Below are positions 712 through 32,970 of a stretch of 34,276 bases of DNA, piece after piece. Origin of the DNA: Desulfobacterales bacterium. Lineage in GTDB: Bacteria > Desulfobacterota > UBA8473. Position 1 is the first letter of the stretch; each line of letters opens with the position of its first letter. The notes beneath the pieces are model-generated. The model was not told where the DNA came from. It saw only the letters and a program-made list of their open reading frames with translations, and did not search any database. The translations under genes and the position numbers were made by a program. Where the stretch lies: NCBI GenBank assembly GCA_016209225.1, contig JACQWO010000073.1, forward strand, positions 1 to 34,276, in the 5' to 3' direction.

Positions 712-1482
712 CTAATAATTCATTACCAGAAGCTCTGTAACCTTTTTCTTTTTGTCTGCACCTCCAGCACTGTATGATGTATTCACAACTTCATATCTAA
801 ATTCTTTGTATAGGTTCTTAATCTCCGGCAGATCGTTGATCGACATAATAAATTTACCCTTGATGCCCTTGAGAATCTCTCTGAGCTTTTCAAAGTCTTC
901 CCGCTGGAAAATTCCATCACCATAATAATCCTCACAACCCAAATACGGTGGATCGATATAGAAGAATGTGTCTGGCTTATCAAAGCGGGTTATTACTTCT
1001 TCATATGGCCTGTTTTCTATGTAAACACGCGCCAGACGTAGATGAATGGCCGACAATTCTTCTTCAATCCGCAGAAGATTTAAACGAGGCCTTGCTGTAG
1101 TAGCTATAGAAAAGGATGGATTTTTAATCCTCGCAGCGTAGCCCAGCTTCAATAGATAATAAAAGCGCACAGCCTTTTGAATGTCAGTCAGGGTCTCCGG
1201 AGCTTCCTGCCTGAATCGATAGAATTCATCCCTCGAAACCAATATCCATTTGAAATATCGAATAAACTCCTCGAGATGATGTTTTATAACGCGGTATAAC
1301 GTGACTAGATCGAGGTTTATATCGTTGATAATTTCAACATGAGACATATTTTCGTCTTTTTTAAATAGCATCCATGCAGCCCCTGCGAATACCTCAACGT
1401 AGCATCTATGCTTCGGTATTTTAGGAATAATTTTAGGTGCTAGCAGCGATTTGCCGCCCATATACGCCAAAAAGCTATTCAT
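712..1482 (-). CDS. D12-class N6-adenine DNA methyltransferase (Dam-like)
   Basis: This 256-residue protein has the layout of D12/Dam-type adenine methyltransferases. The N-terminal SAM-binding segment is YMGGKSLLAPKI (7-18) with VFAGAAWMLF (31-40), and the catalytic DPPY motif is at 177-180. It should transfer a methyl group from SAM to adenine in DNA; the site, perhaps GATC, cannot be told from the sequence. A strong GAGGAGGGG ribosome binding site precedes the ATG. It is the last gene of the late strand, where Mu carries its DNA-modification gene mom, so it may protect phage DNA from restriction. It is full length for the family. Confidence 0.92.
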   Translation of the reverse strand: MNSFLAYMGGKSLLAPKIIPKIPKHRCYVEVFAGAAWMLFKKDENMSHVEIINDINLDLVTLYRVIKHHLEEFIRYFKWILVSRDEFYRFRQEAPETLTDIQKAVRFYYLLKLGYAARIKNPSFSIATTARPRLNLLRIEEELSAIHLRLARVYIENRPYEEVITRFDKPDTFFYIDPPYLGCEDYYGDGIFQREDFEKLREILKGIKGKFIMSINDLPEIKNLYKEFRYEVVNTSYSAGGADKKKKVTELLVMNY

Positions 1483-7411: not shown

Positions 7412-9980
7412 CATACCCCTCCACGAGTTGCCTGAGCTGCTCAACAAAACTCTCCGCATCAGTAACACCCGGCAAAGTCAGGTTAATATCTCCTTGAATT
7501 ATAAGATTTCCTTTATTCTTTCTGCCTTCCGAAATCCCCGTTGCGTCTTGTTGTTTATTCACCGCTGTTTGACTCCAATTCATATTCCCTGAAAGGTTTG
7601 GAGTCTTTGGCAAGTTAATCTCCCGACTTTCCCACATAGCTTGTGCGGACAGATCGGGAATAGCGGGAACTTTCAGCTGCTGAGGCAAAATGGCCGTGTT
7701 TTGTACAATTGCGGCAGGCTTGGCTAATTCCCCTGTAATATCTGGCGCAGCAACGACTGGAGACGCTATCATTACACCGGCCAGTGCGCCGGCAACAGCG
7801 TTTTTCATGGCAGGTACAGATGCTTGGACGCCGGCTCCCAGGGTTTCCATAATACGTGCGCCCGACAATGTCAGCTGAGATAGCGGCCCCTCTTTGGCGT
7901 CGGAAAAAGGCAAGAGATTTCTAACCTTTGCAAGTCCTCCTTTTACGATTTCCACTGGAGCTAGAAGTTTTGCTTTTATCCCTGTAACCAAGGCATCCCA
8001 TAATTTTGAGCCTGCCTCCAAAAAGCTCGGTATCAATCCCCGTATCCAATTCAACGCTGCTTGCACTCCTGTTTTTATCGCATCCCAATTCATGGCAATC
8101 GCCAAAGGAGGGAAAACAAACAAGGAAAGCAACGTGGACGCTGCATTGAGGACTGGCTTAAGCCAATTAAATTTCTCGGTCAGTTGTTGTATCTTGTTGG
8201 TAACCCATGAAATAATATTGCCTGCGCCCCAGAATAGAGCTTTAACAAAAAGAAGTGGATTGCATATCGCCGATAAAAAGCTTTTTCCAACCCTTACAGC
8301 CGTGCCGACAATGTATCCAAGCACAAAAAGAAATCCGTTAATAACGGTCCGTACAGCCTCAACTCTTTTATAAAGGAAAATTAAAGCCCCAACTAACACT
8401 GCAATCCCCACAACTACCCAGGTGATAGGGTTGGCCAGCAGCGCCGCAGTAAACGACCACACAGCCGCAATGGCAGCGCTAAGTGACGGTATTATTCCGG
8501 CGATAGTGCTTCTGACCCATGCCCAGATAGACGGAATCAACGTCCTGTTGATCGTGCTTGCATATGCCCTGATACCGCCCTGGGCATATAGAAAAGTAAG
8601 CAGCGATTGTTTTTGCCAGAGCATCCAGAATTTCATTGAAGCAATGGCTTTTAAAATGTTTCCCCGGACAAAACCAAAGGCTGTACCAATATGGGTAATG
8701 CCCAATATCATATTAGGAGCCATCAACCCGACGGCTCCTAAAACGGCAGCCACAGTCCCAAATACAAACACAAGCGCCGAAATCACTCCAAGACTGACGA
8801 CAATAACCCTGGTCAATGTCCCGTGCTTTTCGGCAAATTCGGTGATCAGTTTTATACCTCTGCCTATCCATGAAAACACCGGAGACAAAACAGGAATAAG
8901 CTGTTTACCGATAACCTCCAGGAAGTTACTGGTTCGTTGTTTCATAAGCGCGATCCCCGAACCTATATCCTTGTTCATGGTCATTGCCATCTGTTCGGTA
9001 AACCCGGTCCCTGTACGCATGGCAGCCGCCAGGCTTTGAGTGTTGTCGGTAAGTGCCCCAACTTTCCCATATAACAGGTCTATTACTGCCACAGCTTCCT
9101 GTGTCCCAAAGGCCTTCTGGATCTCCATCTTCTCGATGGCATCCAGGGTGTCGCCATATTTACCCTTCAGGTTTGCAAGGATCGCCGGCATACTGAGGAG
9201 CTGTTTGTTGCTGTCCACAAATCGGAGGTTCAGTTTTTCCCCCGCTCCTGCCGCTGCCTGCATAAGCGCCTTGTATTTTGTCCCTGCCTCGCTTCCACTC
9301 ATGGTCGCCTGCAGCATACCCAGGATGGTAAGCTGCTCCTCCATCGGTATTTTTGCGGTTGTAGCCACTGCCCCGATCGTCGAAATAGCCTGTGCCATCC
9401 CTGAACCGGTCGTCTTGAAGTTCTTAACGCTCGCCGCAATTCCGGCGGAAAACATCTCCCCGAACTGCATGTCAGAGAGATCCCCATACATATCCTTGTA
9501 TATCCCATAACCTGTAGCAAACAGGCTGGTCATCTCCGCTGTGGTTGATTTTGTAGCCTTGCCGGTAATGGCCGCCAACTTGGTGAACTCCGCCACTCCC
9601 GTATCCGTGAGGGTAGAGATACCGCTTTTTATGTCATAAGCCGCCCCTATAAACTGAGCCTTTGTGGTGCCTGCCCATTGGCCGGAAAATGCCGCTCCTG
9701 CCTTTTCCAAAGCGCCCAGATCCTGAACTCCAACAGAAGAAAGCTCTCCCAGTGCCTTTTGAGTATCCACTGTGGCCATAACTGCCCCGGAGAGCATGTG
9801 CAACATGAGCGCTCCGACAGTAGCCACCCTCAGACCATAGGTCTTGAATTTATCAAAAGAAGGCCCTAAAGAAGCCACTTTCCCCTTGAGAGTGTCCATG
9901 CCTCCGGATATACGTGAAGTAGGCCCAGTCACCTTGTCCACCACAGAAAGGAGTATGCCTAATTTAAAGATACTCTCCAT
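7404..9980 (-). CDS. Tail tape measure protein
   Basis: 858 residues, by far the longest late protein. It sets tail length and enters the cell envelope with the DNA. The N-terminal half is alpha-helical with the TP901-type tape measure core (residues ~80-330, including IGAAYDIKSGISTLTDTGVAEFTKLAAITGKATKSTTAEMT in outline). Two hydrophobic regions follow at roughly 390-450 and 490-575, as is usual for tape measures. It lies just downstream of the frameshifted assembly chaperone, the classic order. Its start is set apart from the chaperone by a 165-bp gap that carries an opposing small gene. Confidence 0.93.
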   Translation of the reverse strand: MESIFKLGILLSVVDKVTGPTSRISGGMDTLKGKVASLGPSFDKFKTYGLRVATVGALMLHMLSGAVMATVDTQKALGELSSVGVQDLGALEKAGAAFSGQWAGTTKAQFIGAAYDIKSGISTLTDTGVAEFTKLAAITGKATKSTTAEMTSLFATGYGIYKDMYGDLSDMQFGEMFSAGIAASVKNFKTTGSGMAQAISTIGAVATTAKIPMEEQLTILGMLQATMSGSEAGTKYKALMQAAAGAGEKLNLRFVDSNKQLLSMPAILANLKGKYGDTLDAIEKMEIQKAFGTQEAVAVIDLLYGKVGALTDNTQSLAAAMRTGTGFTEQMAMTMNKDIGSGIALMKQRTSNFLEVIGKQLIPVLSPVFSWIGRGIKLITEFAEKHGTLTRVIVVSLGVISALVFVFGTVAAVLGAVGLMAPNMILGITHIGTAFGFVRGNILKAIASMKFWMLWQKQSLLTFLYAQGGIRAYASTINRTLIPSIWAWVRSTIAGIIPSLSAAIAAVWSFTAALLANPITWVVVGIAVLVGALIFLYKRVEAVRTVINGFLFVLGYIVGTAVRVGKSFLSAICNPLLFVKALFWGAGNIISWVTNKIQQLTEKFNWLKPVLNAASTLLSLFVFPPLAIAMNWDAIKTGVQAALNWIRGLIPSFLEAGSKLWDALVTGIKAKLLAPVEIVKGGLAKVRNLLPFSDAKEGPLSQLTLSGARIMETLGAGVQASVPAMKNAVAGALAGVMIASPVVAAPDITGELAKPAAIVQNTAILPQQLKVPAIPDLSAQAMWESREINLPKTPNLSGNMNWSQTAVNKQQDATGISEGRKNKGNLIIQGDINLTLPGVTDAESFVEQLRQLVEGYDV

Positions 9981-18468: not shown

Positions 18469-20742
18469 TTAATCCTCAGCCGCCTTGCGGTGCCTGCACT
18501 CAGGATGATACGGCGGACTCTCAAAACCCGCGTCCTGGAGCTGCTCGTCCGTCATCTTTCCGACCTCATCAACTGTGTAAGCGTTGGGCAAAAAAGGAGG
18601 TAGATCATCGACATCCTCAAAACCCTTACTTACGACCTTTGAGAGTCTCGTAGCCGCTTTTTCTACATCAAATACTCTTCCAACCATGCTTGCGCAATAA
18701 CCGCAAATATGTCCGCTCGTTGGGCCTACAATACGAAACCGTTTATAGCCTGTCTCATACAGCTTAAGCGTTTGTCCAAAGTTCTGAATCCTTCCCATTG
18801 ACGTATCAACAAGCTGGTTGATCTTCTGCCGGGAGGTCTCTTTTACCAATCCTGAAAAATTCCGCTCAAACTCCTTGATGGTCTCTTGATCCTTTATGTT
18901 CAGACCTTTATCGACATATTCTCCCTCGAGCCATTTAATGAATTTTTGGCTCACGGTTTTATGGTTCGCCAGATAATTCCCTGATCCAAAATAGTGCCTA
19001 TCAATGGCCCGCAAATACCTGAGAGCGTTCTCATCCACAATTCCCAGCCTAGCCCTTTGAGCCTTGAGCCTTGAGCTTTGAGCTTGAAGGAAGCTGTTAT
19101 CCTCATACCGGTACCGCTGCCACGCCTTCTCCACATATTTATCCGTGAGATTATCAATTGCAGGGTAGGGGATCTCATTCACCAGACTTTCTGAAAAAGC
19201 CTGATATACAGCATTTGCAAAAGCAGTCTCATCTCTGTAGTCCTTTTGAGCGGCCTTAACAGCCGCCACTATAGCCACATCCTCCGCACCTTCCAGAACA
19301 CTCGTCAACGCCTCAACACAATTCTGAACCCTCTTCTCCTTCTCGCTATGCGCCATGCGCTCTGTACTCTGCGACAGGTATAATCTGTCCGGCCGGTGCC
19401 TGTATTTTCCCGACTCCCTGTCAAACTTAAATCTGGTTTTACTGCCTTTTCCCCCCTGATCTTGCAACATCCAGTCCGGTACATTACCGGGCTTATCGCC
19501 GGTTGCCTCGTCATATCCGAGTTCTCTGGCTGCCTGATCATCGTCGATGAACCCCGCATCTCGCTTTTTAATCACATTGTCTATTACCTCTCCGTCTGCC
19601 TGGGCTCTTTCCAGTTCCTTGAATCCAGTCCCCTCGTTGAAATGGACTGTGACATCTGCTTCCATGCCCCTTAAAAGCAGGTCAAGCTCATATCCCTTTT
19701 CAATGAATCGCTTTGTGATTCGTCTTATATTCGTGATCCGTGTCATAAGCTTCTTAAAATCTACTTCAGCGTATGTCTCTGTTGTTGAGTAGCTTCTGCC
19801 CATCATGCTTGGCGGAATATCCAGGGCGCTGCATATTTGCTCTTCATTCAGGTTAAAAATGCTCTTTGCCCCGGCTGATGCTGTTGCTCCTACACTGTTA
19901 TGTTTGATCTCCTGGTCTTTGTAATGCACTGCTACTCCCTTGGAAAAATTAGACGCATAGGCTGCAGCGTAATCCTTAAGTCTCTTCTGGAGCCGCTGTT
20001 TGAATGATTCGTCACTCTCCCCGGCTTTTTGTTGAGGTATCTCCATATTCACGTCCAGAAAGCCGAGCAGTCCCGTCTTTTTAATGATATAGCCGATGTT
20101 GCTTACAGCATCCAATTGAACCTCAATGTTTTTAAGCGCCGCATAAAAGGGCGGGATTGCGTAAGGACTTCCATCCATCGTCATAATTGGGCTGTAAGAA
20201 AACGTAAGGGGATTCAATTCAACAAATGTGTTATCAATCCCCCTGCCTGTGTATTGATAGGGTCTGTATTCCCCGTTTCCGTATTTAAATCGTATGGTTC
20301 GCACCGGAGGAATCACCACATCCCTTACCCCTTCTTCGATCCTGTCGGCAATTACCCACTCGCCTGATAAGGCTCCCATTAGCGGTATCTGGCGGAAAAA
20401 ATGGTTGATCAGCCCATCCATACCCCCGCCTGTTTTGTAAACGTTGCCCGCAAGCCAGTTGAGCCGGTCAAGTGCAGCATCCGGGTTTTTTGCCTGAATC
20501 TCCACTTCATGTCCCGCATTTCCCATGTTCACCAGGATCGATAACGCCTGAGAAACATCAGGGTTCCATATAGCCAGTACCTCCAGCACCTGGAGGTACT
20601 CAAGAGGGAAGCCAGGTGTAGTAATGTCGTAAAACATTGAAAGTCTGCCAATGCTTCCCCTCAGCCCATCATCTTCAGGGATCGATCTTCGCCCGGGATC
20701 AATATCCGCAACCCTCACTCTTTTAAGTCTCTGCCATATCAT
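18469..20742 (-). CDS. Portal protein fused to a MuF-type minor head domain
   Basis: 757 residues. Residues ~30-440 are portal-like: ALSILVNMGNAGHEVEIQAK, PYAIPPFYAALKNIEVQLDA, then LDIPPSMMGRSYSTTETYAE near the portal crown. The C-terminal ~300 residues are MuF-like, with the helical LVDTSMGRIQNFGQTLKLYE, the HICGYCASMVGRVFDV motif and PPYHPECRHRKAA at the end; these Cys/His residues typify MuF. In Mu the two are separate (gp29 and gp30). Linker DNA at 19053-19087 holds a 7-bp tandem repeat. The start forms an ATGA overlap with the terminase gene. Confidence 0.88.
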   Translation of the reverse strand: MIWQRLKRVRVADIDPGRRSIPEDDGLRGSIGRLSMFYDITTPGFPLEYLQVLEVLAIWNPDVSQALSILVNMGNAGHEVEIQAKNPDAALDRLNWLAGNVYKTGGGMDGLINHFFRQIPLMGALSGEWVIADRIEEGVRDVVIPPVRTIRFKYGNGEYRPYQYTGRGIDNTFVELNPLTFSYSPIMTMDGSPYAIPPFYAALKNIEVQLDAVSNIGYIIKKTGLLGFLDVNMEIPQQKAGESDESFKQRLQKRLKDYAAAYASNFSKGVAVHYKDQEIKHNSVGATASAGAKSIFNLNEEQICSALDIPPSMMGRSYSTTETYAEVDFKKLMTRITNIRRITKRFIEKGYELDLLLRGMEADVTVHFNEGTGFKELERAQADGEVIDNVIKKRDAGFIDDDQAARELGYDEATGDKPGNVPDWMLQDQGGKGSKTRFKFDRESGKYRHRPDRLYLSQSTERMAHSEKEKRVQNCVEALTSVLEGAEDVAIVAAVKAAQKDYRDETAFANAVYQAFSESLVNEIPYPAIDNLTDKYVEKAWQRYRYEDNSFLQAQSSRLKAQRARLGIVDENALRYLRAIDRHYFGSGNYLANHKTVSQKFIKWLEGEYVDKGLNIKDQETIKEFERNFSGLVKETSRQKINQLVDTSMGRIQNFGQTLKLYETGYKRFRIVGPTSGHICGYCASMVGRVFDVEKAATRLSKVVSKGFEDVDDLPPFLPNAYTVDEVGKMTDEQLQDAGFESPPYHPECRHRKAAED
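19053..19087. repeat. 7-bp tandem repeat within the portal-MuF gene
   Basis: GCCTTGA (19061-19067), GCCTTGA (19068-19074), GCTTTGA (19075-19081) and GCTTGA (19082-19087) stand in tandem, preceded by a looser copy at 19053-19060. Translated on the minus strand they give QAQSSRLKAQRARL within a helical linker. Such TTGAGCC arrays are a common intergenic repeat type, here tolerated in frame. Confidence 0.8.
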
Positions 20743-22259
20743 GCAACTGCCTCCGCGAATTCAGGCATGGTATCGGTAACAATTGCTCCGCCCCAATCGG
20801 CATGAACGGCATACCAGGCCATTGCTCCAGCCACTCCCTCATCGCCGTGGCGTTTTTTATTATCCTTCCCTTTAGTCCTCACGTCCGGTAGTTTGGCGAT
20901 ACCGCGAATAACCTTGAACGCCCGATGATCTTCGATGACGTCGGCATCTTTTGCCATGAGAACAGTTTTGTCCTCAAACGCAGATCTATATTGATACATG
21001 TTCTCCCGATACCATTGTTCCGTCAGCATGACCTGGGCAATTCGGGAAGGGCCGTAACGCTGCATCGCACGTTCCGCCAGATACTGACCATTACCGCGTG
21101 CATCGAGTGCTCCGTACCGGAAACGGGGAAGGCGATCACAGATATAGTAGAAAATCTGCTCTTGCTGCTGAAACGGGATGTTCCTCAGCTCCAGATGGAA
21201 TATTGCCTTCCAGTTGGCGTTCTGCTGTTCAATCAATGGAATAAATACTGACAGATCTCCGGTCCTTCCGAAGTCCTCTCCAACTACTGTATTCCTTTCT
21301 TGATCGACAACCACCAGTAATGATTTTAGAACTTCCTCACACCAATCCTTGACCTCGGCATATCGGATATGATCGGGCAACTCGGCAAACGATGCGGGCT
21401 GTTCATAACGGATAACCGGAATATCATCAGACAAACAGGTTTCAATTAGTGCACGTGTTAAAAATGTTCCTGTCCCCTGGCTCGGCACACAGAAAAGCTC
21501 TTCATCGGCATCGTCTCGGTAAGAATCAATGATCTCCTGACGCCACGCAATTTCGCCTGCCGGTGTCCATTCCCTTTTTAATACCTCACAAATACGTTTA
21601 TAAAGACCGTCCTCTAATGCATCATCTAAATCAACCCGATGGAGGCTATAGGGGGTTTTCTTCGACCGTATATCCTGTATGATGGAATTGAATTCATTGG
21701 TATCCCCGAAATGTGTACTGATGACCCGTATCTGACCGCCCCACATAAGCAACGCCATCCCAGCCTTAAACAGTCCGGCAAGATCATCATGGAACGCCGC
21801 CTCATCAATTACCAGACGGCCCTGCTTACCACGCAGGTTTGTCGGCCTGCTAGAGAGCGCCGTTATCCGCCAGCCTGATTCGAGGGTGATCTTATACGCT
21901 AATATCTTCTTTTCTTGGACGACTCCGCCAACTTCTTCTTTGTCAATCTCCTCGTATTCTTCCATTTCTGAAGCTGCCAAGTTATACGCTCTGGCCCAGT
22001 TTGCGCAGTCGTTGATAAACTCCAGTGCCATGTCCTTTGTGTACCCGATATACCATACGTCCCGTTTCTCGCCGCTACCCTTCTCGGATGCGTAAAGGGT
22101 ATCATCCGCCGCCTCGGCCCACGAAATACCGACACGGCGGGATTTTTCGATGACCTTTACCGGAGACGGATCGGCAATCCAACGGATCTGATACGGCAAC
22201 AATACGCCCGTGGCAAAACGCGCCTGGTCAAAATCATTCTGTGGATTCACTTCTGTCAT
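20739..22259 (-). CDS. Terminase large subunit (Mu gp28-like)
   Basis: 506 residues with both enzyme halves. The ATPase has a Walker A-like KSRRVGIS (39-46), Walker B RLVIDEA (148-154) with the catalytic acid pair at 152-153, and a coupling motif near RVISTH (178-183). The nuclease has acidic residues D329 in GEDFGRTGD, D386 in ALDARGNG and HGDEGVAGAMAW near the C-terminus. It packages DNA into the prohead and cuts it at headful length. ATGA overlaps join it to the small subunit and portal genes. Length is usual. Confidence 0.93.
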   Translation of the reverse strand: MTEVNPQNDFDQARFATGVLLPYQIRWIADPSPVKVIEKSRRVGISWAEAADDTLYASEKGSGEKRDVWYIGYTKDMALEFINDCANWARAYNLAASEMEEYEEIDKEEVGGVVQEKKILAYKITLESGWRITALSSRPTNLRGKQGRLVIDEAAFHDDLAGLFKAGMALLMWGGQIRVISTHFGDTNEFNSIIQDIRSKKTPYSLHRVDLDDALEDGLYKRICEVLKREWTPAGEIAWRQEIIDSYRDDADEELFCVPSQGTGTFLTRALIETCLSDDIPVIRYEQPASFAELPDHIRYAEVKDWCEEVLKSLLVVVDQERNTVVGEDFGRTGDLSVFIPLIEQQNANWKAIFHLELRNIPFQQQEQIFYYICDRLPRFRYGALDARGNGQYLAERAMQRYGPSRIAQVMLTEQWYRENMYQYRSAFEDKTVLMAKDADVIEDHRAFKVIRGIAKLPDVRTKGKDNKKRHGDEGVAGAMAWYAVHADWGGAIVTDTMPEFAEAVA

Positions 22260-22786
22260 ACAATCCCCAATATTTTCTTCCGGATCATCTCGGCTTTTTC
22301 TTCCGAGAGACCATCTTTTTTGACCGATTTTACAATGTCATCCGCGGTGGCCTCTGCTTTCTTCTGAAAGTCCGCCTTGAGTCTCTCTCTTGTTACTGTA
22401 GATGATTGCAGCTTTGCAAAATCAGAGATTATCCTCGGTGTTTTGCTTATGTCTATTCCCTCGTCAAGCAGCAGTTCCATGAGGGTTGCCGCCATCTTCT
22501 TGGCAACTGCCTCTTCCAGCACCATTCCATCGCCGCCTGCCTCGGAGACTAATATCTTGCTCTTATCCTCAATGATCAGTAGCTTTCGGTACTCATTCAG
22601 GAACTCTTTGCCATATCTCCCGATGCTGGAGCGTGATATATCGTGCCCCTGTCCCTTCAGATAATCCGAGATATCCTCGTATGTCTCACCTTCGATGAGT
22701 AGTCGATTGACCTCCCTGCGTATCTCCGGGGGCAGCTCATCCTCGACTTTGCTGTGCCGTCTTACCTTGGTGTGCGGGCCACCCAT
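22256..22786 (-). CDS. Terminase small subunit (Mu gp27-like, DUF3486)
   Basis: 176 residues. The start KVRRHSKVEDELPPEIRREV and the helix-turn-helix region (VNRLLIEGETYEDISDYLKGQGHDISRSSIGRYGKEF, about 32-68, in outline) are typical of DUF3486, the DNA-recognition subunit of Mu-type terminases. The ATG at 22786 overlaps the upstream stop as TGATG and is preferred over the GTG one codon before. It feeds into the large subunit gene by ATGA. Confidence 0.88.
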   Translation of the reverse strand: MGGPHTKVRRHSKVEDELPPEIRREVNRLLIEGETYEDISDYLKGQGHDISRSSIGRYGKEFLNEYRKLLIIEDKSKILVSEAGGDGMVLEEAVAKKMAATLMELLLDEGIDISKTPRIISDFAKLQSSTVTRERLKADFQKKAEATADDIVKSVKKDGLSEEKAEMIRKKILGIV

Positions 22787-23034
22787 CACTCCAGCTCCTT
22801 TTCGACCTGTGCGATCTTATCGCAAACATCCATGTATTCACGGCGGAGATCCCGCGCTTCTATAGACAGATCAGCAACCACCTCCATGTCAATTTCGGAG
22901 ATTGGGGACAATGATGCACGTGCAAGCAGGTTTTTAATAGAATCGATTTTTCCGCCGGCTTTAACGGCAAGCTCCCTCTTCTTTTGTTTCAAAGCCAGAT
23001 GCTCTTGTTTCAATATCTGTCTTTCCGTGTTCAT
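22786..23034 (-). CDS. Small coiled-coil protein (Mu gp26-like position)
   Basis: 82 residues, charged and helical throughout, with a heptad-like N-terminus (LKQEHLALKQKKRELAVKAG) and C-terminus (LRREYMDVCDKIAQVEKELE). Mu has a similar small gene just before its terminase pair. Starts in an ATGA overlap and ends in a TGATG overlap. Function not known. Confidence 0.7.
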   Translation of the reverse strand: MNTERQILKQEHLALKQKKRELAVKAGGKIDSIKNLLARASLSPISEIDMEVVADLSIEARDLRREYMDVCDKIAQVEKELE

Positions 23035-24192: not shown

Positions 24193-24687
24193 CTATACCT
24201 CAAAATGCGGATAATCCGGGCGAGACTGACCTTTGCTATTCTTGAAACGTCCGCCCCATTTCAAACTTACGGATTCCCCGATTTTTCCAGCCTCTTCATA
24301 ATCTGTGATTTCGTTTTCGTTGACATCGGTCTTGATGTCCCATGTAGGCTGTCGTTTGCCCCCTAGAATGACAATGTCAAATGCCCGGGCCTTGTCGTTG
24401 TCTGGTTTCCCATCATCAAGGTCTATAATATGGTTAGACTTGAGTGTCCATGTAACCTTGAAAACATTTCTGTCATGGGGAATACTTCCAAGTCCTGCAA
24501 TCTTTCTAAGCGCATTTACATGATCCAGCGATTCTCTGCCCTGGGCATATAGAGCCATCTGTTCACGTATTGTCCTGGCGGTACAGGTGAGGATAAAAGG
24601 GATGCCTGCGTTGTCCATCTTTTCCTTAAAAAGCCAGTACTTCTCCTGCAATTCTGGAACACAATCCTCAATCTTGCGTGATGCCAT
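24193..24687 (-). CDS. Endolysin, M15-type peptidoglycan peptidase
   Basis: 164 residues of the VanY/M15 family (zinc L-alanyl-D-glutamate or D,D-carboxypeptidase type, as in phage T5 endolysin). Zinc ligands are inferred as H86 (SNHIIDLDDG), D104 (KARAFDIVI) and H161 (PDYPHFEV). FILTCTARTIREQMALYAQG (31-50) is the family's N-terminal motif. No signal peptide, so export needs a holin. The ATG overlaps the stop of the upstream selenoprotein frame as TAATG, so the two are translated together. Confidence 0.92.
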   Translation of the reverse strand: MASRKIEDCVPELQEKYWLFKEKMDNAGIPFILTCTARTIREQMALYAQGRESLDHVNALRKIAGLGSIPHDRNVFKVTWTLKSNHIIDLDDGKPDNDKARAFDIVILGGKRQPTWDIKTDVNENEITDYEEAGKIGESVSLKWGGRFKNSKGQSRPDYPHFEV

Positions 24688-24878
24688 TATCTATCCTCTG
24701 TTTCTATTCTTATGTCGGGGGTTGTCTGCACGCTGTAAAATGATGCCTCAGCCAGACCATCGATGGTTGTGATGTCGAAAATCTCCACATCATGCCCGCA
24801 GCCCTTCAAATCATCCGCCAATTTCCTGGCGGATTTGCATTTCGGTCAACTCTGAGAGACGAAGATTTTTATTTGCAT
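24687..24878 (-). CDS. Thioredoxin-fold selenoprotein with UxxC motif (TGA read as Sec)
   Basis: From ATG at 24878 the frame reads MQIKIFVSQS, TGA, PKCKSARKLADDLKGCGHDV and onward to the TAA at 24689-24687; with TGA as selenocysteine it is 63 residues. The TGA (24848-24846) takes the place of the first Cys of a CxxC redox motif at the end of the first beta-strand, and TTPDI (52-56) matches the cis-proline loop of thioredoxin/glutaredoxin folds. DGLAEASFYSV between them is typical of small glutaredoxin-like proteins. A stem-loop follows the TGA at SECIS distance. It may be a redox enzyme of the late operon; it lacks the final helix of longer relatives. The alternative is a Cys-to-TGA mutant. 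A weak GTGGGA site precedes the start. Confidence 0.8.
24813..24834 (-). promoter_or_regulatory. Bacterial SECIS-like stem-loop
   Basis: On the minus strand ATCCGCC (24834-24828) pairs perfectly with GGCGGAT (24819-24813) around the loop AGGAAATT. The loop starts 19 bases after the TGA (18 intervening), inside the 16-37 base window of known bacterial SECIS elements, and has G among its first two loop bases. This would recruit SelB with Sec-tRNA. Confidence 0.75.
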
Positions 24879-25010: not shown

Positions 25011-25061
25011 CAAAAAACAAAAAGCCCGCTCCCCGTTGCGGTTGCAACGAAAAGCGGGCTT
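25011..25061 (-). terminator. Strong rho-independent terminator closing the early operon
   Basis: AAGCCCGCT (25022-25030) pairs with AGCGGGCTT (25053-25061), and inside it CGTTGC and GCAACG form a second stem around GGTT. On the minus strand the structure is followed by TTTTTGTTTTTTG (25023-25011). It should stop early transcripts, including com, before the late genes. Confidence 0.88.
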
Positions 25062-25118
25062 CGTAAGCCTCTATTTTCTTATATGGCGATCGAATCGCTC
25101 TAGCTATTATTTAATGAA

Positions 25119-25280
25119 TTAAACTATTCTTTTTAAAAAGTCAACCCTTTTTTGACTATCTCTCTGTTTATCTCCTTGAATATTTTGAATATATCCACAC
25201 TTGGGGCATTTAATCTCTATAGTCTTAGCTTCCCCTTTAAATAAAAGTCTTCCGCACTTCTTACATTTATTCCTTTTCAT
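25119..25280 (-). CDS. com: Com-like zinc-finger translational regulator
   Basis: 53 residues, MKRNKCKKCGRLLFKGEAKT then IEIKCPKCGYIQNIQGDKQR and a basic tail. Two CxxC pairs (C6/C9 and C25/C28) and the LLFKG--K-IEIKCP-CG pattern match Mu Com, a small zinc protein that binds mom mRNA and opens its start site. Here no mom-like gene follows; the gene is followed by the early terminator, and the phage methyltransferase is 23 kb away at the end of the late strand. The gene lies opposite the start region of the secreted plus-strand gene. Confidence 0.85.
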   Translation of the reverse strand: MKRNKCKKCGRLLFKGEAKTIEIKCPKCGYIQNIQGDKQRDSQKRVDFLKRIV

Positions 25281-27404: not shown

Positions 27405-27875
27405 TTATACCCGTCCCCCGTCTTCCGTCTTCATCACCTCATAGCCAAACTTCTCCACCAGCTTCTTTCTCCCGCCGACCATAAACAGCCTCTCCTCCGG
27501 CCACTGCTCGATGACTGCTCTGTCCACACTCTTGGCAATCTTGATAGCCTCGGCAAAACCGTGCTCCTCTATCCTTGCAATTACATCCCTAGGCAAAGTA
27601 ATTTTTCTCTCCTTTGCATACAGCAGTATTCCATTCGCCAGATTAATTTTATCCCTGCCATCGAAGAGCGGCCCCTTGCTATCCTTCATTAGAAAAACGA
27701 TCTCCTTGTCGAGATCAACAAGATGGTCTTTAAGTGCGCCTAGTTCGGTTTCGTATTTTTGCCTGATAGCAGCTACCTCGACCTCTGCATCTCTTTCCCG
27801 CTCGCTGATCCAATCTGTAATTTCTTTGATCTCATGCAGCAGAATGTCTGCTTGTTCCTCCAGATATTTATCCAT
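27405..27875 (-). CDS. gam: Gam-like host-nuclease inhibitor (Ku-like end binding)
   Basis: 156 residues; Mu Gam is somewhat longer. A coiled-coil N-terminus (5-60) leads to the core GRDKINLANGILLYAKERKITLPRDVIARI and EHGFAEAIKIAKSVDRAVIE (in outline), both typical of Mu Gam. Gam binds ends of linear DNA and blocks exonucleases such as RecBCD, and is related to Ku. It lies among early genes downstream of the transposition operon, as in Mu. GAGAGGTAAAAGC precedes the ATG. Confidence 0.93.
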   Translation of the reverse strand: MDKYLEEQADILLHEIKEITDWISERERDAEVEVAAIRQKYETELGALKDHLVDLDKEIVFLMKDSKGPLFDGRDKINLANGILLYAKERKITLPRDVIARIEEHGFAEAIKIAKSVDRAVIEQWPEERLFMVGGRKKLVEKFGYEVMKTEDGGRV

Positions 27876-29558: not shown

Positions 29559-30040
29559 CACATCACCTCGATCTTGAACTTTTCTCTGTTGACGATATTG
29601 TATAGTTGTGTCGCCCCTCTGCCGTGGACACACGGGCGTTTCCCTACTAGATGTATATGCCCATTTTTTTTCAGGTTCCGAATTATCCTGTTAACATAAC
29701 TCGTATTAGAAACACCTGAAATCCGCTGAATATCAGCGGAAGAAAATGCCGATGCTGACACATACATAGCCTTGACTATACGAGGTTTGAGACAGCCCTT
29801 TTTCTCTCTGCGCCAGCCCTGGTTATATTGGTACCTGCCTTTTTTTATTCTCTGTATCTCTCCCCTTTTTACAAAATCTGTGATGACGTTCCTGATCTGC
29901 ATCCTGTCTTTGCCTTTAGCTCTAAGACCGTTACAGACTTCCGGGACTGTGAAAATGGATTGTCTGGTGGATACCCAGCACCTTATCCTTTTTGCCAGTC
30001 CTGTTTTAGGTATTGTCGCAGATGTCTTTTGCGAGTTCAT
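29558..30040 (-). CDS. Early DNA-binding protein with two winged-helix-like domains
   Basis: 160 residues. Two similar blocks, residues ~25-70 (FTVPEVCNGLRAKGKDRMQI ... RGEIQRIKKGRYQY) and ~88-150 (SADIQRISGVSNTSYVNRII ... NGHIHLVGKRPCVHGRG), each read as helix-turn-helix plus wing. It is basic. AGAGGT precedes the ATG, which lies 35 bp inside the end of the MuB-like gene. No named family; it probably regulates or accompanies transposition. Confidence 0.7.
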   Translation of the reverse strand: MNSQKTSATIPKTGLAKRIRCWVSTRQSIFTVPEVCNGLRAKGKDRMQIRNVITDFVKRGEIQRIKKGRYQYNQGWRREKKGCLKPRIVKAMYVSASAFSSADIQRISGVSNTSYVNRIIRNLKKNGHIHLVGKRPCVHGRGATQLYNIVNREKFKIEVM

Positions 30041-30695
30041 CGCTTACCTCTTTTATTCCGCTTGCCCTCATTGCCCTCTCAATGCCTATCGCAGCAGTTA
30101 ACACAGGTCTCCAGTCGCCATGAGAACGGCGGTGAATGGTCGATGCTACCCCTGCCGATATCTCAACCCCTAGCGACTTTTGAAAAAACAGAGCTATGTC
30201 GGGTTGAATCACAGGGGTAAACTCCATTTTTTGCCTGATTCTGCTGGCTATGCGGCGGTGCCTTGCCACCTTTGTTTTCAGATCTTCCTCCCCGATTAAA
30301 AGAATAGGACATGAATACCGCTCGTTTACGCCTCTCAGCATCTCAAGTACCTGCATCGCAAGCAGGTCGGCCTCGTCAACGATTATCAGACGTCTCTCTC
30401 TGCCCAGTTCATCCCCGATCATGGAGAGGCACTTCTCTGAATTTCGGGGTTTGACCTTGCAAAGCTCGAACGTGATCTCCCTGAGCATCATCGATGCGGA
30501 ACGGATATTTAAAGGCGGCAGGTATATGGCAGATGACCCGGCTGCATAGTGTTTCGCTGCCTCTGACTTCCCTCTGCCAGCAGGACCCGTTACCATTGCA
30601 AGAGACGGCCCGATCATGCTCTCAGGGTCTTCCAACTCCCTGCAAATACTGTCAAAAGCATTTATGTTTTTCGTGTTTACAAAGACGTTTTTCAT
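30006..30695 (-). CDS. B: MuB-like AAA+ ATPase, transposition target selector
   Basis: 229 residues. Walker A is GPAGRGKS (37-44), Walker B RLIIVDEAD (102-110) and a sensor-like LLIGEEDL follows. MuB forms ATP-dependent filaments on target DNA, delivers it to MuA and protects phage DNA from self-insertion. It starts 13 bp after the transposase gene, the standard order. It is shorter than Mu B (312 residues): the N-terminal helix-turn-helix of Mu B is not seen, as in many relatives in which only the AAA domain is present. Confidence 0.92.
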   Translation of the reverse strand: MKNVFVNTKNINAFDSICRELEDPESMIGPSLAMVTGPAGRGKSEAAKHYAAGSSAIYLPPLNIRSASMMLREITFELCKVKPRNSEKCLSMIGDELGRERRLIIVDEADLLAMQVLEMLRGVNERYSCPILLIGEEDLKTKVARHRRIASRIRQKMEFTPVIQPDIALFFQKSLGVEISAGVASTIHRRSHGDWRPVLTAAIGIERAMRASGIKEVSDELAKDICDNT

Positions 30696-30708: not shown

Positions 30709-32970
30709 CTATTGATACGTTCCGTATTTCCTCACCATCTCCCAATACTCTCTTTGCCCTTCGGTCATTCTATTTTCATACTCAGTCTTAAAAGCATAGT
30801 CATCCTTCCTTAACTCACCGCCGGCGATTTCATATTCCACACAGAACGTGTATCTGGTCAGGTCGTCCAGGAAGTATGTCGGTCTCGCAGGCAGGGGTTT
30901 TCTCCTGACCTCATTTTTGTTTTTTTCAGCCTGAGCCTCAAGCTCAGCTACCTCTGCTGCAAGTTCCTCCGATGTGCGTTCCCTGTATAGTTCGTGTTCC
31001 TCGTCTGCCCTTTTCTTTTTATCCTTGCCTATTAGAGCAGCAGCTTTTTCAACAGGTGAGGTTTGGGAGTGCTGAATAAAGTTCGGTATCTTCGATGTGA
31101 GCTGCCTGTATTCTAGTAGGCACTCTTTCCGACGCCTTGCCTTCTCCTCTATTTTTCTCCCTGCCAGGCCCACGTCCTTCATGCTGGAGTATTCCACCAG
31201 CTCGGCACGGCATATATATTCGCCCCTGCAAAATACCAGCAGCCATTCGGGGTCCATCGGGTCGTACCTAATCTCGACTTTTTCGCCTTTTTCAAGCAGG
31301 AGGGGAATAAGGGCGTCATGCTCATACTGCTCGTTTCTGAATGTGATCCTGCCACGGTCCACTCCCCTCTCATCCCGTGACAGGAATATCAGGTCTGTAG
31401 TATCGTCATTCAGATATGTCGGCTGCCATCCATCCTGGCAGCACATCTTCAGGCAGTCCATCGGGGTTGCTTCTCTAGGTTTTGGTTTCCAGACCCATTC
31501 TTTTCGCACTCCGCGATGCGCCTTTTTGTTGTTGTAGTAGTCCATAGCCTTGAAAAAAATCATCCTGAACTCACTGAATGTCAAAAGCTTGCCCGAGTTT
31601 CCAAGTTTTTGAATCTCCTTTTGATCTACTTCCTGCTCTTCCTGGGATGCACAGAGATCCTTTACATACCCGGGCACCAGGAATACATTTCTGAGGAGCT
31701 GCTCAAACCTCCTGAACGTCCCCTCGATCATCTTTGCCTTTGCGTTTCTGACAATCGCTTTTCGGTGTGTGCCGGGGATGATCACACACGGATGTATCTC
31801 CTCCGGGTCGATATCGATGGATGTGCAGGCGGGGATATCTATAACATTCCCTGCCGACATATTCAGAGAACGGATGTCCGCCATTATGCTTCTTATATAT
31901 TTAGATTCTTCCGGTTTCCCGTGGTCTGTATAGATAGATGAAAAAGCTCCGAATATCTTCATGCCAACTCTCAACGCAACACCCATGAGCTGGCTGTCGT
32001 ACTTTTTGTCTATGGCGCCGCCATAAAAACATCTAGTCCTGAGATCCTGCCATACGTACCCCTCCGGACGGAAGACCTCTCCGGTATCATCATCAACCAC
32101 CCAAAAGTCAAATCTGTGTTGATCTCCCACAAGGATCTCGAACGGAGCCAGGTCGGAATAATTTCGGAGTACTGGAGGAAGGGTATTGTCTAAAGCCCTG
32201 ACTCCACCTCTCTGAAGGGCAAGAAGCTGAGGGGTGATCTTCTTTTTGAGCCACCATAGGGCGCTCTCGTATCCGCCTATGTCCCAGCCTCTCTTGTTTG
32301 CCTCTTCCTGCAGGATGGCATACAGTATCTTCTTGCCGTCCTTCATCAGCTTGCGGTGCTCTTTTTTCAGACAGAGGCCAACCCACCAGTCGATAGCCTC
32401 CGGTGTCCATGCCTTTGCCTGTTTGGGCTTGCTGTGCTTTAACCCTGCAAGCCCTCCTTTTTGATATTTCTGTATTTTTCTATATATGGTAGATACAGTG
32501 GTGTCGTGCTTGACAGCCACCGCCTCGATCCACGTTCTCTTTTTCCATCCCCTGGGAACATCCAGGGCTTCCTGAACTATCTTGCTGGATTTCTGTACCC
32601 CCTCGTTGTGGAGGATGTTCGGGCTTATATGTGTATCTCCCTGCCATGCATCCGATTTTTGGGCTCCGGCAGAGAACGACATCTCCGGGAGATATTTGTT
32701 GGCAACCTCAATGGCAGCCTCAGGGGCAAGGACAGATAGGAGCAGGGGAGAGACATCGTTTTTTTCGACATATCTCTTTTGGAGGGATGGCGTAAGGCAT
32801 GAGAGGGCAATTTTGGTTATTTGTCCCCCCTTGCCTCCGCCATTTTGGGAAGGAAAGAGTTTTGTCTTTTTGTAGTAGCTGGAGTTGAGACGTCTCTGAA
32901 TTGTCTTTTCTGACGATTTTTCGATGTCCACCACCTCTTTTTGACTCAACCAGACCTCATCCATCCGCAA
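30709..32970 (-). CDS. A: MuA-type DDE transposase
   Basis: 753 residues; Mu A has 663. The order is an N-terminal Mu-type winged helix (1-70, VWLSQKEVVDIEKSSEKTIQ), two end-binding helix domains (~130-250), and an RNase H-like catalytic core with D283 in VGDQHRFDF, D349 in IYTDHGKPEES and E416 in KMIEGTFRRFE. A beta-barrel domain and a C-terminal region for MuB and ClpX contact follow. It cuts and joins phage ends during integration and replicative transposition. AAGGAT precedes the ATG. The long inverted repeat at 33024-33075 sits just upstream and a third copy of its motif lies at codons 12-16. Confidence 0.95.
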   Translation of the reverse strand: MRMDEVWLSQKEVVDIEKSSEKTIQRRLNSSYYKKTKLFPSQNGGGKGGQITKIALSCLTPSLQKRYVEKNDVSPLLLSVLAPEAAIEVANKYLPEMSFSAGAQKSDAWQGDTHISPNILHNEGVQKSSKIVQEALDVPRGWKKRTWIEAVAVKHDTTVSTIYRKIQKYQKGGLAGLKHSKPKQAKAWTPEAIDWWVGLCLKKEHRKLMKDGKKILYAILQEEANKRGWDIGGYESALWWLKKKITPQLLALQRGGVRALDNTLPPVLRNYSDLAPFEILVGDQHRFDFWVVDDDTGEVFRPEGYVWQDLRTRCFYGGAIDKKYDSQLMGVALRVGMKIFGAFSSIYTDHGKPEESKYIRSIMADIRSLNMSAGNVIDIPACTSIDIDPEEIHPCVIIPGTHRKAIVRNAKAKMIEGTFRRFEQLLRNVFLVPGYVKDLCASQEEQEVDQKEIQKLGNSGKLLTFSEFRMIFFKAMDYYNNKKAHRGVRKEWVWKPKPREATPMDCLKMCCQDGWQPTYLNDDTTDLIFLSRDERGVDRGRITFRNEQYEHDALIPLLLEKGEKVEIRYDPMDPEWLLVFCRGEYICRAELVEYSSMKDVGLAGRKIEEKARRRKECLLEYRQLTSKIPNFIQHSQTSPVEKAAALIGKDKKKRADEEHELYRERTSEELAAEVAELEAQAEKNKNEVRRKPLPARPTYFLDDLTRYTFCVEYEIAGGELRKDDYAFKTEYENRMTEGQREYWEMVRKYGTYQ

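Follow-up and report, generated by a model that had tools for sequence, protein, structure and literature searches.

A Mu-like prophage gene with an in-frame TGA very likely encodes a selenocysteine-containing relative of the glutaredoxin-like protein of nrdD-nrdG operons

Introduction

Within the class III ribonucleotide reductases, the NrdD3 subclass receives its electrons from a glutaredoxin-like NrdH, a CxxC redoxin tied to NrdD (PMC9176816, Table 1); the example is that of Methanosarcina barkeri (Wei et al. 2015, cited in PMC9176816), which we liken to the present case by its description there. Selenocysteine (Sec)-containing glutaredoxins are also known in bacteria (PMC13188914, PMC1794560, PMC1088965), and those of Geobacter sulfurreducens and Clostridium oremlandii, again likened by description, carry a UxxC motif with the SECIS element right after the UGA (PMC13188914, PMC1794560). 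The bacterial SECIS model requires a stem of 4-16 bp, a loop of 3-9 nt, a spacing of 16-37, a G within the first two loop positions and an MFE of -7.5 or lower (PMC13188914). Phages, for their part, carry NrdH and glutaredoxin genes for nucleotide metabolism, which are of the Cys type and counted with the aerobic class Ib nrd genes (PMC3653736), whilst Basilisk-like Bacillus phages carry a tRNA-Sec gene, with no described phage selenoprotein (PMC6145125). The latter are the nearest precedent that we found among published open-access papers, where no phage- or prophage-encoded selenoprotein came to light; in a 2026 review of prokaryotic selenoproteomes, the words 'virus' and 'prophage' occur nowhere.

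The locus described here lies in a 34,276-nucleotide contig of a Desulfobacterales bacterium (JACQWO010000073.1, assembly GCA_016209225.1), analysed over its whole length and hereafter called the window. Like the NrdH of NrdD3 reductases, its product belongs with redoxins tied to NrdD, but it is predicted to carry Sec for Cys, is encoded away from nrdD and is ~25 residues shorter. Like the Sec glutaredoxins of G. sulfurreducens and C. oremlandii, it has a UxxC motif followed at once by a SECIS-like hairpin; unlike those proteins, which are listed as cellular, it comes from the nrdD-linked branch and sits in a prophage. It shares with the phage NrdH and glutaredoxin genes a putative role in nucleotide metabolism, and with the Basilisk-like phages a link to the Sec machinery, albeit in a prophage that has no tRNA gene of its own. 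What is new, judging from the sequences, is a predicted UxxC glutaredoxin in a phage, from a branch of the family that is otherwise Cys in every genome seen here.

Results

A redoxin frame split by a single TGA in a Mu-like prophage

The window represents a transposable prophage of the Mu type, in which a MuA-type transposase, MuB, Gam and Com accompany an endolysin gene as well as head and contractile-tail genes (terminase, portal, major head protein, contractile tail sheath, tape measure, baseplate and tail fibre; Table 1). The Sec gene sits among the late (lysis and head) genes and away from the replication genes; because a strong terminator-like site separates it from com, it probably heads the late operon. 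An earlier note, made from the DNA letters alone, had proposed a 63-residue frame interrupted only by a TGA, and translation of the minus strand from 24878 to 24687 bears this out: the leading residue of a UxxC motif corresponds to the single in-frame TGA, and the product, with the TGA read as U, is MQIKIFVSQSUPKCKSARKLADDLKGCGHDVEIFDITTIDGLAEASFYSVQTTPDIRIETEDR*. Elsewhere in the prophage TGA is an ordinary stop, ending 11 of the 28 long minus-strand frames, so that any recoding at the Sec gene would be local; an alternative code with TGA as sense throughout is ruled out on the same count.

Table 1. Features of the prophage window that bear on the Sec gene and its surroundings.
Feature	Position	Strand	Remark
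DNA methyltransferase gene	712-1482	-	far prophage end
Terminase large and small subunits	20739..22789	-	
Endolysin (Peptidase_M15_4)	24193..24687	-	start overlaps Sec-gene stop
Predicted Sec-containing glutaredoxin-like gene	24687..24878	-	63 codons, UPKC active site
In-frame TGA, putative Sec codon 11	24846..24848	-	TGA also in L025, TGY (Cys) in cellular homologues
Candidate SECIS hairpin	24813..24834	-	perfect 7-bp stem, 9 bp in predicted fold
Terminator-like hairpin, strong	25021..25062	-	between com and Sec gene
Com-like zinc ribbon protein (Mu-like)	25119..25280	-	
Mu Gam-like protein	27405..27875	-	
MuB-like DNA transposition protein	30006..30695	-	
MuA-like transposase	30709..32970	-	

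Within the window, only two in-frame UxxC or CxxU candidates are accompanied by a SECIS-like hairpin. The second, at 9532 on the minus strand in the tape measure region, has an in-frame TGA, a Cys at +3 and a hairpin downstream; its sequence is without redox-like character, and it looks like a product of chance.

A shortened thioredoxin fold

The thioredoxin-like pattern that had been read from the residues up to the cis-Pro loop is upheld by profile and structure predictions. With C in place of U, the product matches the Pfam families Thioredoxin_3 (2.2e-5) and Glutaredoxin (8.3e-5), both barely exceeding the curated cut-off, and AlphaFold2, given 35 aligned sequences, confidently predicts a β-α-β-α-β core (mean pLDDT of 90 in the best model, 71-90 across the five). 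In this model UPKC opens helix 1, and TTP, with the cis-Pro, precedes strand 3, which is the arrangement of the thioredoxin-fold core. By fold, the nearest PDB entries comprise thioredoxins as well as glutaredoxin-like proteins, the best match having an E of 1.9e-3, the profile-nearest solved structures being archaeal glutaredoxin-like proteins. Nothing follows strand 3 in the model: the fourth strand (the C-terminal β-hairpin partner) and the last helix are absent from both phage copies known (the second is described below), whose frames span 61-63 residues, compared with about 80-98 in nearly all cellular relatives, and the residues missing from both lie at the C-terminus of the cellular form. 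This shortening could change the choice of partner. Both phage redoxins have thus lost the last strand and helix, and purifying selection nonetheless persists in them.

The TGA is shared by a diverged prophage and the sequence beyond it is under selection

The TGA had been placed where the first Cys of CxxC belongs, and ~60 cellular homologues, which is to say all of those seen, indeed have Cys there. A scan of one genome per species across 84,980 species found 34 relatives, with Cys at position 11 in all but one. The exception (locus L025), on a contig of SURF_34 ('Deltaproteobacteria') that is also present in IMG/VR, has a TGA at the identical codon and a homologous endolysin next to it, and SURF_34, identified with genome G002 through its contig coordinates, is another species of the host genus; the position thus holds Cys in cellular homologues and TGA in a second prophage. 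Across the phylum, the redoxin family occurs in 65 of 395 genomes, with TGA in the window and SURF_34 only.

These two redoxins are 74-76% identical, and identity between the prophages is 91% for MuB, 89-93% for terminase, 65% for Gam and 54% for the endolysin, a considerable divergence through which the TGA has been retained. Upstream of the Sec gene the two prophages carry different genes, yet its place ahead of the endolysin is the same in both. Over codons 12-58, comparison of the two copies gives a dN of 0.19 and a dS of 0.91 (dN/dS about 0.2, Fisher p about 1e-4), with similar values over codons 24-58, beyond the hairpin (dN 0.18, dS 0.86). Such purifying selection argues that the sequence past the TGA is translated and selected as protein.

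Further Sec copies were sought in viral contigs by a profile-guided scan, which found only the SURF_34 element, and the pattern K-x-F-xxx-U-P-K-C gave 10 matches in viral contigs, none of them redoxin-like; a tblastn search against annotated phages returned only distant thioredoxins and glutaredoxins, at 41% identity or less. The known Sec sequences therefore number two, both from one genus.

A hairpin kept by compensatory change

Just past the TGA, the arms ATCCGCC and GGCGGAT form the perfect stem that had been described in the earlier note, enclosing the loop AGGAAATT; the stem begins 11 nt past the TGA and the loop about 18-19 nt past it, close to the 18 bases first reported. The segment has an MFE of -14.6 to -16.6 kcal/mol and a fold z-score of -2.8, and all of the features of the bacterial SECIS model (PMC13188914) are present. 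The SURF_34 hairpin shares all of them except the G, which is found at neither of its first two loop positions. Among the 1249 TGA trinucleotides on both strands of the window, only 3 are followed, at a spacing of 16-37, by a stem that has 7 or more Watson-Crick pairs and a G at one of the first two positions of its loop.

Conservation of the hairpin had been suggested as a check, and between the two prophages 5 of the 14 stem bases are substituted whilst all 7 pairs are kept, two of them altered on both sides; the changes are A-U to U-A, U-A to G-C and C-G to U-G. In a simulation that placed an equal number of changes at random and ignored codon constraint, all pairs survived in 0.4% of cases with at least five stem changes (P 0.004). 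At the corresponding positions, 57 Cys homologues have a mean of 2.8 of 7 paired and a maximum of 5 of 7, and the host's own Cys redoxin gene has 3 of 7; since pairing is complete in the Sec copies only, a hairpin in this location is a feature of the Sec form alone. Stem position and pairing, not MFE alone, separate the two forms, given that 16 of the 57 Cys forms are at least as stable as the SURF_34 hairpin.

The host carries most of the Sec machinery

No tRNA gene was found in the prophage, which implies reliance on the Sec machinery of the host. The sel genes that the earlier note proposed to look for are largely there: the host genome, 98.5% complete in 95 contigs, contains SelA (633 bits), tRNA-Sec (selC; 75.9 bits, gathering score 47) and SelD (390 bits), the last with a TGA in its own active site and, similarly spaced behind it, a strong hairpin. 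No fewer than four genomes of the genus, the host's among them, have a selD with a TGA at the active-site Cys position and a strong hairpin after it (locus L010 in the host, L117 in SURF_34).

SelB, on the other hand, was not found in the host assembly, where the sub-threshold matches are all GTPases, CysN and EF-Tu among them. Two of these were considered and rejected, one on contig C14, which is CysN and adjoins CysD, and one at the edge of contig C10, which is the start of EF-Tu. The gene is present in two genomes of the same genus (G001 and G004), and host contig C58 agrees with the flank of the selB block in G004 at 85-91%, as far as C58:60117. As C58 ends at 60266, about 70 bp short of the expected start of selB, the absence is very probably an assembly gap. 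In the SURF_34 MAG (73% complete), SelD with a TGA was found, whilst selA, selB and tRNA-Sec were looked for and not found; the MAG may be too incomplete to show them, or its organism may have given up full Sec decoding.

Relatives of the phage redoxin are encoded with the anaerobic reductase

In cells, the family is a glutaredoxin-like protein whose gene has nrdD on one side and nrdG on the other. At 64 non-prophage loci, which include a few organisms drawn twice from two collections, nrdD lies beside the redoxin gene in 62 and nrdG in 60. The phage redoxin is 41-54% identical to cellular members, keeps the C/U-P-x-C motif and retains the GLAEASFY signature in full. Neither nrdD nor nrdG was found in the prophage window; the host has an operon of nrdD, a redoxin with CPKC, a CheY-like receiver and nrdG. 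The gene for the CheY-like receiver domain lies between the Cys redoxin and nrdG of this class III operon (L060:1805-2224, contig C18).

In a tree of 63 rows, built on few columns, the phage pair stands apart from the host genus's own redoxin with 98/95 support, which argues that the phage gene is no recent copy of the host gene and disfavours a recent capture from the present host.

Discussion

The selenoprotein interpretation put forward in the earlier note has gained support from the homologues, the second TGA copy, the compensatory hairpin and the host machinery, and we consider it very likely that the gene does encode a selenoprotein. To this we add the identity of the family, which by sequence is the glutaredoxin-like one found in nrdD-nrdG operons. 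Taking both together, a genuine phage selenoprotein, most likely a reductant of NrdD, is in our view the probable and best joint explanation of the homology, the conserved TGA and hairpin, the purifying selection past the TGA, the Sec machinery of the host and the nrdD/nrdG linkage of the relatives. Weighing against it are the selB missing from the host assembly, the SURF_34 loop without its G and the Sec genes not found in that incomplete MAG, the mere two Sec sequences from a single genus, the shortened C-terminus, the lack of nrdD and nrdG in the phage and the place of the gene among late rather than replication genes.

Could the TGA instead be a true stop, in a decaying or truncated frame with an incidental hairpin? 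The loop G missing in SURF_34, the short C-termini of both phage proteins and the selB missing from the host assembly would fit, but diverged prophages share the TGA, the stem changes are compensatory, selection continues past the codon and the host has Sec machinery, all of which make this improbable. More implausible still is that the hairpin is a transcription terminator of the plus strand, where the stem is followed by TTGCATTTCG and is flagged as terminator-like: the T tail is poor, a convincing plus-strand gene was not noted there, and the hairpin goes with the Sec version of this gene. The neighbouring endolysin raises another thought, namely that the UGA and hairpin act mainly as a selenium-dependent switch, whereby read-through would control how the overlapping endolysin gene is translated, with the redoxin of secondary importance. 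The two genes adjoin in both prophages, and the TAATG overlap of the Sec-gene TAA stop with the endolysin ATG, from which the earlier note had argued for coupling, is real in the window; as an argument it is weak, given that the overlap is not conserved and a 48-nt gap replaces it in SURF_34. Moreover, the window endolysin has its own purine-rich GAGG stretch before its start, and selection acts on the amino acids of the redoxin, so we regard a switch as very unlikely. Scarcely better is a broader version, in which the late programme is tied to selenium, Sec read-through both making a reductant for the host anaerobic reductase and tuning endolysin translation through TAATG, with dNTP supply and lysis timing tracking selenium status.

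A more serious contender accepts the selenoprotein and gives it another target, in lysis or in general thiol redox, such as reduction of the endolysin or other late proteins, or defence against peroxide. In both prophages the gene immediately precedes the endolysin, and this, together with its apparent place at the head of a late operon after a terminator and the shortened C-terminus, which may alter the choice of partner, speaks for such a target; against it, all non-phage relatives are tied to nrdD/nrdG and the family signature is fully retained. We hold such a target to be possible, if the less likely of the two, and lean modestly towards a phage protein that serves ribonucleotide reduction by feeding the host anaerobic reductase, because of its homology to the nrdD-linked family.

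Returning to the NrdD reductant, we infer Sec insertion, the partnership with NrdD and a benefit to the phage along the following lines. A glutaredoxin-like gene of the nrdD-nrdG type, from anaerobes, would have been acquired by a Mu-like temperate phage, and in the phage version the N-terminal catalytic residue would be Sec (UxxC), with loss of the last strand and helix. Host SelA, SelD, tRNA-Sec and SelB would insert Sec, guided by the hairpin just past the UGA, and the small selenol redoxin could then reduce the disulfide that the host class III NrdD forms at each turnover. Selenocysteine is a more reactive nucleophile than cysteine, by virtue of selenol chemistry. Perhaps the supply of dNTPs for phage replication would in this way be raised in the anaerobic cell, alongside the Cys redoxin of the host.

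If the gene is what it appears to be, its dependence on the host Sec machinery would link phage fitness to selenium supply, and the phage would offer a route for Sec genes to move between hosts; it would also show that UGA-blind annotation hides phage genes. Should the link to the reductase hold as well, a class III reductase would here have a Sec electron donor whose Cys counterpart sits in the same cell, and the pair would provide a natural test of what selenium buys.
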